Assembly: GCF_002865985.1 (NCBI RefSeq)
Contig: NZ_LNDD01000005.1
Location: forward strand, 1 to 64,000
Direction: 5' to 3'
Source: Thermotoga sp. SG1
GTDB lineage: Bacteria > Thermotogota > Thermotogae > Thermotogales > Thermotogaceae
Length of the DNA: 64,000 nt
A program made the translations under genes and the position numbers. The notes beneath the pieces were generated by a model, which made no database searches, was not told the DNA's origin, and saw only the letters and a list, made by a program, of their open reading frames with translations. Shown in pieces: positions 17,283 through 64,000 of this stretch. The first letter of the stretch is position 1. Each line of letters begins with the position of its first letter.

Positions 17283-18230
17283 ATGTCTTTTTCAAACGAG
17301 ATGAAGGTTTTTGCTGGAAATTCTAACAAGCCTCTTGCAGAGAAGATAGCAAGGTACCTGAATCTTCAGCTTGGTGACTGCGAGGTTGGCAGGTTTGCTG
17401 ATGGGGAGATAAACGTCCGAATCAACGAGACAGTGAGAGGCCATGACATATTCCTCATTCAATCCACGTCTCCCCCGGTCAACGAAAACTTGATGGAGCT
17501 TCTCATCATGATCGATGCGTTCAAGCGGGCTTCAGCCAACACGATAGCTGTCGTTATTCCTTACTATGGATACGCAAGGCAAGACAGGAAGGCAAAGGGA
17601 AGAGACCCGATAAGCGCCAAACTGGTGGCAAATTTGATCACGGTGGCTGGTGCAACCCGGGTTCTCACGGTCGATCTTCACGCAGAACAAATTCAGGGAT
17701 TCTTCGACATACCGGTTGACAATCTATGGAGTTATCCTGTGTTTGCAGAAGAACTTCAAAAAAGGGAGGAAATAGTCCCCGAAGAAACGGTGGTTGTGTC
17801 TCCAGATGTGGGTGGAGTAAGAAGGGCAAGAAGAATGGCAGAACGACTGAAAACATCCCTTGCCATACTTGACAAAAGAAGACCGAGTGACAATGTGGCG
17901 GAGGTTGTAAACATAATAGGAGAGGTGAAGGATAAAGTAGTTATCCTTTTTGATGATATAATAGATACTGCCCATTCGATAGTAAAGGGCGCTGAAGCTC
18001 TGAAGAAGGCCGGTGCGAAAAAGATCATCGCCTGTGCAACACACGGGGTGTTCTCGGAGAACGCCCTTGAAAGAATAGAAAATTCCCCGATAGATACCGT
18101 CTACATAACGGATACCATTTACCATGAAAGGCTACCTGAAAAGGTTAAGGTTATCTCGGTGGCAAACCTGATAGGAGAAGCCATCATGAGGATCAGAAAG
18201 CATCTGTCGGTGAGCATACTCTTCAGATGA
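17283..18230 (+). CDS. prs: Ribose-phosphate pyrophosphokinase
   Basis: Makes PRPP from ribose 5-phosphate and ATP for nucleotide, histidine, tryptophan and NAD synthesis. It has the VDLHAEQIQGFF region, VVSPDVGGVRRAR and the PRPP-binding loop LFDDIIDTAHS. 315 residues. Follows glmU by one base, with AAAGGAGG as SD. The glmU-prs-rplY-pth order is common in bacteria. Confidence 0.95.
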   Translation: MSFSNEMKVFAGNSNKPLAEKIARYLNLQLGDCEVGRFADGEINVRINETVRGHDIFLIQSTSPPVNENLMELLIMIDAFKRASANTIAVVIPYYGYARQDRKAKGRDPISAKLVANLITVAGATRVLTVDLHAEQIQGFFDIPVDNLWSYPVFAEELQKREEIVPEETVVVSPDVGGVRRARRMAERLKTSLAILDKRRPSDNVAEVVNIIGEVKDKVVILFDDIIDTAHSIVKGAEALKKAGAKKIIACATHGVFSENALERIENSPIDTVYITDTIYHERLPEKVKVISVANLIGEAIMRIRKHLSVSILFR

Positions 18231-18252: not shown

Positions 18253-18903
18253 ATGGTAAGTCTAGAGGTCAGATTGAGAACACCAAAGGGCAAAAGAGAA
18301 GCAAAACGCCTCAGAAGAAGAGGAGAAGTACCCGCCGTTGTGTACGGACCCGCAACGGATCCTATTCCTGTGAAGATAAAAAGATCGCTGCTTGAAAAGG
18401 TCTTCCACACGATAACCGAAACCACTCCCATTCGTCTGATTATCAAGGATGATGAGGAGAAGACCGTTTCGGAAAAGACCGTGTTCTTGAAGATGATCCA
18501 GAGAGACAAGGTCTCCGAAGCGATCGTCCACGTGGATTTTTATGAACCTGTCAAGGGTCACAGGATGAGAATCAACGTTCCTCTCAAAGTGGTAGGAAAA
18601 CCCGTCGGCGTGGAAAAAGGTGGCTTCCTCGAAGTCTACCATGAAGAGATCCCCGTTGAAACAGATCCCGACAGGGTACCACAGGAGATAGAAGTGGACG
18701 TTTCTTCACTGGATCTTGGAGATGTGATCCACGCAAGGGATCTGAAACTCCCAGAGGGCGTGAAATGTCTTCTGGAAGATGAAGAAGCAGTGGTATCCGT
18801 CCTTGTTCCTAAAGAAGTATCCATCGAAGAAGAAGAAGCGGTAGAAAAGGAAGAAGTAGAACCTGAAGTAATAAAGAAGAAGGAAGAAGAGGAAGAAGAG
18901 TAA
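18253..18903 (+). CDS. rplY: Ribosomal protein L25, long Ctc form
   Basis: 5S-rRNA-binding large-subunit protein. The N-terminal L25 domain (RTPKGKREAKRLRRRGEVPAVVYG) is followed by the C-terminal TL5/Ctc beta domain, ending in an acidic glutamate-rich tail. 216 residues, the usual length of the Ctc form. SD CAGGAGGG. Its stop TAA is followed immediately by the pth ATG. Confidence 0.94.
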   Translation: MVSLEVRLRTPKGKREAKRLRRRGEVPAVVYGPATDPIPVKIKRSLLEKVFHTITETTPIRLIIKDDEEKTVSEKTVFLKMIQRDKVSEAIVHVDFYEPVKGHRMRINVPLKVVGKPVGVEKGGFLEVYHEEIPVETDPDRVPQEIEVDVSSLDLGDVIHARDLKLPEGVKCLLEDEEAVVSVLVPKEVSIEEEEAVEKEEVEPEVIKKKEEEEEE

Positions 18904-19464
18904 ATGGTCGCTGTGGGGTTGGGAAACCCAGGCCCACGTTATGCCTTCACAAGGCATAACGTGGGTTTCCTTTTTCTGGATTACTTGAAAAGCAAAGGCT
19001 GGAAGTCGGAGAAATTTTTCGAGTGGAACAGGGCAGAACTGGATGGCCACGAAATTGTACTTGTGAAACCGCTGACCTACATGAATCTCAGCGGTGTTGC
19101 TATGCCTTATATAATGCGTTTCTTTCAAGTGAACGTGGATGATATAATAGTAGTGTACGATGATGTGAGTCTAAAGCTTGGAAAGATCAGGGTCAGAAAG
19201 AAAGGTTCGGACGGTGGACACAACGGAATGAAGTCGATAATCCAGGCACTTGGAACACAGGAGATAAAGCGTATAAGAATCGGAATAGGAGAGAAACCAG
19301 AAGGAACAAGTTTGGTGGATTTCGTTCTGGGTGAGTTTTCAAAAGAAGAACTCGAAGTACTTCAGAAAGTCTTTGAACTTTCCAGAGATGCACTGGTGAC
19401 AATTCTCAACGAGGGAATAGACAAGGCAATGTCCGTTTACAACTCCTTAGAGGTGAGAGTATGA
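18904..19464 (+). CDS. pth: Peptidyl-tRNA hydrolase
   Basis: Releases peptides from prematurely dropped peptidyl-tRNAs. It has the family start [18 protein letters not shown] with the catalytic histidine at residue 18, [10 protein letters not shown], and [17 protein letters not shown] with GGHNGMKSI. 186 residues. The coding sequence for the catalytic motif also forms a perfect 15-bp inverted repeat (see separate entry). Confidence 0.95.
18933..18965 (+). repeat. Perfect 15-bp inverted repeat inside pth
   Basis: CCCACGTTATGCCTT (18933-18947), a 3-nt CAC loop, then its exact reverse complement (18951-18965). It covers codons 10-21 of pth, the catalytic motif. A second, competing pairing exists: GGAAACCCA (18922-18930) is complementary to TGGGTTTCC (18962-18970). 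The mRNA hairpin would be very stable and lies about 30 nt after the start codon. There is no T run after it, so it is not a standard terminator. Confidence 0.95.
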
Positions 19465-19859
19465 AATGCATGAAATGTGGTCAAAAAGCTTCCCATTCTT
19501 ATCAGATAGACTTTGATGGTGTAGAAAAAAAGATCTCTTACTGTAAAAAATGTGTAGCCGAAGTTCTGAGAAACAGTGTGCCTCTCAGAAAGATTGCTGG
19601 TGTTCCGGACGAGACCCTCAAAAAAGGAAGACATGTTTTTGAAGATGAAATGGTAGTTTTCGTAGAGATTCCTGTCTATGTGCTGGAGCAGATGTTTGGG
19701 AAATGGCATCCACAAGAAAGGGAGGTCCTTCTGAACGAAAGGAAAATAGCGTTTCTTGAGCGAAAATTGAAGGAAGCCATAAAAAATGAAGACTACAGAA
19801 GAGCGAGCCGATTGAAACAGCTGATCACTCAGATAAAGAGAAAGATGGATGTGAAATGA
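19461..19859 (+). CDS. McsA-like protein with zinc motif and UVR domain
   Basis: 132 residues. The N-terminus has two zinc-type CxxC pairs (CMKC and YCKKC). The C-terminus has a UvrB/UvrC motif ([21 protein letters not shown]), the arrangement of McsA, the activator of the protein-arginine kinase McsB in Firmicutes. No McsB, CtsR or ClpC gene is in the window, so the Firmicute role cannot be assumed. ATGA overlap with pth. The stop is inside the terminator hairpin. Confidence 0.8.
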
Positions 19860-19887
19860 AAGCCCCTCAAGGGGGCTTTCATCTTTC
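19856..19887. terminator. Shared terminator between convergent genes
   Basis: Stem ATGAAAGCCCC / GGGGCTTTCAT (11 bp) with a 5-nt loop, between the McsA-like gene (plus) and the beta-mannosidase gene (minus). Both stop codons lie inside it. The T run is short on both strands (CATCTTTC on plus), so it is a modest terminator. Confidence 0.7.
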
Positions 19888-63382: not shown

Positions 63383-64000
63383 TGTTTGGACTTGGGTTGA
63401 TAATCGGAAGTTTCCTCAACGTGGTGATCTACAGATCAACGAAGGAGGGTCTCAAACTGTGGGATCCTCCTTATTCATTTTGCCCTAATTGTAAAAGTAG
63501 AATACGATGGTATGACAACGTACCCCTTTTGAGTTATGTTCTGCTGAAGGGAAAGTGCAGGTACTGTGGCTGGAAGATTCCTTTGAGATATCCGACTGTG
63601 GAATTTCTGACGGGGCTGGTGTTTCTTTTGAATTCTCTTTTCATGAAAAACGTGTTGGATCTTCTACTGTCTTGCGTGATATCCTCGGCTTTGATTGCCA
63701 TTTCTTTCATAGATCTTGAGACTTTTTTGATACCGGATTATCTGAACTTCACGGTCGTTGCAGCCTCTTTCATGATGGCGCTCAGAGGTTATTTTCTAGA
63801 TCATCTGTTGGCCTTTTCCGTGGTGACGACCATATTTCTGGTGTTGAAGTTTCTCTATAAAGAAGGCCTGGGAATGGGTGATGTGATTCTTGCAATGGGA
63901 ATAGGCATTCTTCTCCCTCCCTTCCCGGCTATAGTTGCTGTTCTCACCGCTTCAGTTACAGGTATTCTGTTTGCACTGATAAAGGAAAAGGGTAAAATGG
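63367..64000 (+). CDS. pilD: Type IV prepilin peptidase, partial at window end
   Basis: Membrane aspartyl protease that cleaves and methylates type IV prepilins. N-terminal GLIIGSFLNVVIYR, two CxxC pairs (CPNC and CRYC) in the cytosolic loop, catalytic aspartates in FIDLETFLIPD and GMGD. The reading frame is open to the last base, so the C-terminus is outside. TTG 63367 follows AGGAGG by 10 nt; ATG 63382 is an alternative. Overlaps the TPR gene end. Confidence 0.93.
   Translation, partial: MRHILMFGLGLIIGSFLNVVIYRSTKEGLKLWDPPYSFCPNCKSRIRWYDNVPLLSYVLLKGKCRYCGWKIPLRYPTVEFLTGLVFLLNSLFMKNVLDLLLSCVISSALIAISFIDLETFLIPDYLNFTVVAASFMMALRGYFLDHLLAFSVVTTIFLVLKFLYKEGLGMGDVILAMGIGILLPPFPAIVAVLTASVTGILFALIKEKGKM

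Follow-up and report, generated by a model that had tools for sequence, protein, structure and literature searches.

The closest described counterparts of the element reported here are intrinsic (Rho-independent) terminators, which combine a stable GC-rich stem with a U-rich tail soon after a stop codon. Premature and ORF-internal termination sites have also been mapped by Term-seq (e.g. in E. coli; PMC7815308), and in ribosome-controlled attenuators the choice between termination and read-through depends on the ribosome covering a hairpin. At the DNA level, single-copy inverted repeats with a short spacer are found as Xer/dif sites. Here we describe a hairpin within the first codons of pth, the gene for peptidyl-tRNA hydrolase, in a stretch of 64,000 nucleotides from Thermotoga sp. 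SG1 (the window), and its comparison across the Thermotogota. Among the papers searched, none was seen to describe this element.

A perfect hairpin in the first codons of pth

In the window, rplY and pth abut: the TAA of rplY is followed by the pth start at the next base (Table 1). The order prs-rplY-pth is general among the genomes examined, except for prs in genera g2-g4 of family f1. For T. maritima, the space between genes is reported to have a median of 5 bp (PMC3636130).

Table 1. Genes of the locus and parts of the hairpin, in window positions
Feature	Position	Strand	Remarks
prs	17283..18230	+	adjoins rplY upstream in most relatives
rplY (bL25/TL5)	18253..18903	+	stop codon TAA at 18901-18903; transcript proposed to end at the hairpin
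pth, peptidyl-tRNA hydrolase	18904..19464	+	first base directly after the rplY stop codon
UVR-motif gene	19461-19859	+	3' neighbour of pth in the window
5' half of the proposed 9-bp competitor	18922..18930	+	partner 18962-18970; complementarity present, fold unsupported
Extended hairpin with weaker outer pairs	18930..18968	+	18 pairs, 3-nt loop; scored terminator-like
Hairpin 5' arm, CCCACGTTATGCCTT	18933..18947	+	early pth codons (G-P-R-Y-A-F); core kept in 61 genomes
Loop, CAC	18948..18950	+	3 nt; variable, effectively 7 nt in several Thermotoga and up to 11 nt in family f11
Hairpin 3' arm, AAGGCATAACGTGGG	18951..18965	+	includes the catalytic-motif codons CAT AAC GTG (H-N-V)
U-rich tract 3' of the stem, TTTCCTTTTTC	18966..18976	+	codons of G-F-L-F; at least 5 U in 8

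An earlier note on this DNA had reported a perfect 15-bp stem with a 3-nt loop, and the two arms are indeed 100% complementary. The stem is the longest perfect one in the window, and in 20 Markov-1 shuffles of the window a perfect stem never exceeded 12 bp. When the codons of pth were resampled synonymously in 20,000 draws, 7 reached at least 13 bp and none reached 15 bp. The stem is thus truly rare, as had been claimed, but the figure of 4 to the minus 15 given for it is too extreme, because it ignores the search space and the leaning of the PRY..HNV residues to self-complementarity. Only one more perfect stem in the 64 kb (loops of 3-9 nt) reaches 11 bp; it has exactly that length and lies at 19856-19882, between the convergent UVR-motif gene and a minus-strand gene, where it is probably a two-way terminator.

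As RNA, the hairpin at 18933-18965 is the most stable single hairpin (span up to 50 nt) on either strand of the window. Its energy is -26.7 to -29.4 kcal/mol at 37 C, and the 131-nt RNA around it has a folding z of -4.1. At 80 C, the predicted energy is -9.2 kcal/mol, with pairs 1-13 formed at a probability of at least 0.87. The C-G pairs at the base of the stem are invariant or almost so among the genomes that carry it, and the hairpin as a whole has the stability and GC-richness of an intrinsic terminator. No Rfam family came near any gathering score in 18700-19200.

It had also been suggested that a 9-bp pairing sharing the 3' arm would let the RNA switch between two folds. The two segments are complementary, but the predicted probability of the fold is about 0 at 37 C as well as at 80 C, and just 12 of the 61 stem-bearing relatives have the complete set of nine pairs. 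Being neither populated nor conserved, the 9-bp fold was rejected as a switch; by the same fold probabilities and the same 61 carriers, the locus has no supported mutually exclusive fold of the kind an attenuator would use.

Synonymous codons keep the stem across most of the phylum

The pth start region could be read in 96 of 103 Thermotogota genomes. The core of the hairpin, CCRCGTTATG-N11-CATAACGTGG (10 bp), occupies the same pth codons in 61 genomes of 21 genera and six families (f2, f6, f9, f11 and parts of f1 and f3); the core varies in three single genomes (G027, G031 and G102) and still pairs there. All 10 core pairs are formed in all 21 carrier genera. Searched with up to three mismatches on both strands of the 103 genomes, the core pattern occurs as one copy per genome, with no match in the controls. 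Viral contigs gave no match either, and with a single copy per genome a viral or mobile origin was rejected.

The codons under the stem are frozen. With each genus represented by a single genome, R11 is CGT in 20 of 20, and Y12 (TAT), H17 (CAT) and V19 (GTG) are each the same in 21 of 21, which corresponds to a codon homogeneity of 1.0 against about 0.2-0.8 elsewhere in pth. In other pth columns Arg is mostly AGA or AGG, and His, Tyr and Val are mixed. Synonymous resampling within each genome gave p = 0.0008-0.016, values to be read with the carriers having been chosen by their stem and the genera not being fully independent. The expectation that the palindrome must rest on synonymous choice is therefore borne out by the frozen codons, the retained pairing and the low resampling p. 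Relatives encoding the same residues without a stem had been named as the observation that would speak against selection; almost all relatives with P-R-Y...H-N-V retain the stem, G052 being an exception.

This bears on the reading that the stem is a by-product of the protein sequence, with the PRY...HNVG codons complementary by chance. The motif does raise the odds of stems of about 10 bp, yet the same residues that are frozen here in 21 genera vary in codon elsewhere, and G052, where PRY...HNVG is encoded but no stem is present, shows that these residues do not make a stem inevitable; we regard chance complementarity as scarcely credible. The distribution of the stem takes 6 changes to explain on a tree built from rplY and prs; well-supported branches force at least 5 of them, so several losses of the stem are likely. 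Taking codons and pairing together, we are nearly certain that the hairpin has been preserved over most of the phylum through synonymous codon choice, under selection at the RNA level.

Covariation on the mRNA strand

Among the core pairs, pair 3 is A-U, G-U or G-C (G-C in G049 and G051), pair 5 is G-C, G-U or A-U, and pair 1 is C-G or U-G; pairs 3 and 5 are fully compensated. One-sided core changes among carriers leave G-U on the mRNA strand, and the core pairs in which a transition at the third position would give C-A (2, 6, 8 and 9) are invariant. The inner pairs 11 and 12 covary as well (C-G, U-A, U-G), yet they are broken in f11. The covariation score lies above all 500 shuffles, a control that is inflated by the relatedness of the genomes. 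With few independent events, the covariation is good but not overwhelming evidence for pairing on the mRNA strand.

A single-copy, conserved palindrome with inverted arms around a short spacer might also be a DNA site, either for a dimeric DNA-binding protein or for Xer/dif-type recombination. We consider this highly improbable: the one-sided changes keep G-U pairs that DNA would not reward, and lineages that lack the stem have terminator-like hairpins, not the same sequence elsewhere. Published dif sites (PMC2731167, PMC3325230) also look different: the site in pth is GC-rich and intragenic, and its inner ends are GCC/GGC. Known dif sites are AT-rich, mostly intergenic and close to the replication terminus; compared with published dif and difH on GC content, location in a gene and inner ends, the pth site was rejected as an Xer/dif site. 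Conservation of the letters themselves need not imply a sequence-specific binding protein, because, by the codon table, pairing together with the fixed Y, H, N, V and G dictates nearly the whole arm.

U-rich tails and replacement hairpins at the rplY-pth junction

We scanned for terminator-like elements with a mechanical criterion, a hairpin of -11 kcal/mol or lower plus at least 5 U in 8. Such an element was found in 51 of the 61 carriers versus 24 of 1242 control windows; the scan took loops of up to 9 nt and so missed several f11 carriers. Its place is that of a terminator, shortly 3' of a gene or operon that has just ended, the core beginning about 29-42 nt past the rplY stop codon in carriers. 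The U-rich tract is a moderate rather than an ideal match: it is interrupted (TTTCCTTTTTC in the window, GTTTTATGTTT in many relatives), so that the efficiency of termination may be modest. The letters of the tail are set by conserved G-F codons and have no clear synonymous bias (F21 is TTT in 18 of 21 genera, like other F).

Genomes without the strict core were scanned in the same 270-nt junction region. An element of this kind was present in 16 of 35, against 10 of 459 of their own control windows (Fisher p = 3e-14, with genomes of a genus related and not independent). Two of the 16, G049 and G051, still form a variant of the main hairpin, in which each has compensatory changes along with a single core mismatch. 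In genera g2-g4 of f1, all six genomes lack the stem and have an element inside pth, about 65 nt deeper, which consists of GCTCCCC...GGGGAGCG and then a T-rich tail (TTTTTATATG, for example). In genera g7 and g14 of f3, eight of nine genomes have it in an enlarged rplY-pth gap, which the carriers do not have. The hairpins in this gap are textbook-like, for example AAAAGTCCCCCATTGGGGGACTTTT or, in G041, AAAAGTCCCCC-ATT-GGGGGACTTTT. A different hairpin with a weaker tail occupies the same deeper pth position in f5 g26, one genome of which matches the Mesoaciditoga record L053.

In f7, f10 and some members of f4, f5 and f8, the stem is absent and the same criterion picks out no clear replacement. 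Outside the phylum, rplY lies beside pth in 4 of 55 motif-recognised pth loci (one of the four, L053, is Mesoaciditoga), where the same scan found no terminator; these are too few to judge.

Further into pth, the codons of the PLT and LSG motifs are often complementary (ACCGCTGA...TCAGCGGT), for instance at about 19063-19100 of the window. Three f5 g16 genomes without the main stem (L186, L179 and L181) have a stronger, U-tailed version about 141-180 nt past the element start. This complementarity is possibly another replacement, or merely an effect of the motifs.

The replacement hairpins also bear on two other functions for the RNA. One is a structured element for the translation or stability of pth mRNA that causes no termination, by slowing ribosomes about 10 codons in, as an RNase III site or by protecting the rplY 3' end. 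Pairing of the RNA is clearly selected and its position soon after the pth start codon is fixed, as such an element would have it, but the replacements in sister lineages, whether in the gap or about 65 nt deeper, share a U-rich tail that neither pausing nor cleavage needs. We think this explanation rather unlikely.

The other is autoregulation, in which the stem would mimic the acceptor-T arm helix of tRNA and bind Pth, the enzyme thereby repressing its own mRNA. The acceptor-T arm of tRNA has about 12 bp and a 7-nt loop, with a G53-C61 closing pair and a T-loop consensus. Several Thermotoga come close with a 13-bp core and a 7-nt loop, yet the closing pair is C-G rather than G53-C61-like, the loop varies in sequence and ranges from 3 to 11 nt with no T-loop consensus, and replacement hairpins outside pth would not serve Pth binding. 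The closing pair and the variable loop led us to reject the mimic, and autoregulation of this type appears very improbable.

The earlier note had placed the role of the palindrome between rplY and pth, which was close; its proposal of RNase III processing there gives way to termination or attenuation, to which the U-rich tails and the intergenic terminators of sister lineages point. Translational pausing and control by the peptidyl-tRNA load, also proposed, gained no specific support.

Proposed mechanism

From the sequence comparisons, we propose that the palindrome, lying within the 5' codons of pth, probably serves the prs-rplY-pth operon as an intrinsic terminator or attenuator. RNA polymerase leaving prs-rplY would transcribe the hairpin about 30 nt into pth; the hairpin would fold behind the polymerase and a fraction of the transcripts would be released, which would provide the 3' end for rplY and hold pth at a low level. 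Ribosomes starting on pth should open the hairpin and favour read-through. Because the pth start codon lies upstream of the hairpin and a full-length pth mRNA needs read-through, termination would necessarily be partial. The place of the hairpin within conserved codons would have two reasons: rplY and pth leave no room between them, and both a stem and a U-rich tail can be encoded by H-N-V-G-F together with the matching P-R-Y. The hairpin, its conservation, its covariation on the RNA strand and its replacement by other terminator-like hairpins are observed directly; termination, its efficiency and its dependence on translation are what we infer from them.

Early U-tailed hairpins in other genes

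We sampled about 1.26 Mb from three genomes (464 kb of this genome and 400 kb each of G006 and G056) for U-tailed hairpins inside ORFs. On the sense strand, 31 of 39 lay in the first 200 nt, versus about 20% expected; of A-tailed control hairpins, 7 of 24 did. Some of the early hairpins reflect wrongly extended ORF starts (one case is a tRNA). In pth, radA, prepilin peptidase, galM, rsmB, flgA and comF (the last below the curated cut-off), a Pfam domain spans the hairpin or lies ahead of it, so several are truly intragenic. This suggests that early-CDS U-tailed hairpins are a layout rather than a single curiosity, and among them the pth hairpin may be the one conserved best. Only tentatively do we extend this to a general layout of the compact Thermotogota, in which a terminator would sit within the first codons of the abutting next gene and the translation of that gene would set read-through; we would sooner bet against such generality.

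Individual cases vary in shape. At 63442-63472 of the window (+), a terminator-like hairpin, AAGGAGGGTC...GATCCTCCTT followed by ATTCATTTT, covers codons 26-36 of a gene for a prepilin peptidase. This gene begins close behind its upstream gene, and the A24_N_bact domain spans the hairpin. In radA (L223, G000:C1:245987-246010, -), the stretch between the zinc-ribbon and ATPase codons holds an A-rich run, a GGGAGGG/CCCTCCC hairpin and a U-run, which together make an almost ideal terminator shape within a CDS. Strong early U-tailed hairpins are also present in L218 in an iron-containing alcohol dehydrogenase-like gene and galM (G000:C1:143984-144025 and 147321-147344, -). In G006 they occur in rsmB, flgA and comF-like genes (L256 at about 8325, L257 at about 14069 and L259 at about 13372).

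Discussion

In this stretch of pth, one sequence serves two codes: it spells the catalytic motif of an enzyme and also an RNA signal. Neutrality should not be assumed for its synonymous sites, and even residues (P-R in NPGPRY) are probably held by the RNA pairing. Very compact genomes can thus hide a control element within active-site codons. Should the general layout hold, which we think less likely than not, it would tie the level of Pth to the start and movement of ribosomes on pth mRNA, a built-in sensor of translation stress held in active-site codons over the phylum. If the hairpin does terminate, it would offer a testable model for how overlapping genes in streamlined genomes obtain transcript ends of their own, and such signals would escape any terminator finder in which coding sequence is masked.

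Set against the described systems, the element resembles Xer/dif sites in being a single-copy inverted repeat with a short spacer, and differs from them in sequence, GC content, intragenic location and G-U-type variation. With ribosome-controlled attenuators it would share the dependence of read-through on a ribosome covering the hairpin, but it has neither a leader peptide nor a supported antiterminator fold, and translation would enter its control only by our proposal. Like the ORF-internal and premature sites mapped by Term-seq, it is a termination-type RNA structure within a CDS; unlike them, it is conserved across a phylum, sits at a gene junction and is known here from sequence. The likeness to intrinsic terminators lies in the stable GC-rich stem with a U-rich tail soon after a stop codon and in the textbook-like examples at the same junction in sister lineages. 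The pth element departs from these in that its U-tract is interrupted and in that it lies wholly within the catalytic-motif codons of the next gene, where it is kept by synonymous choice.
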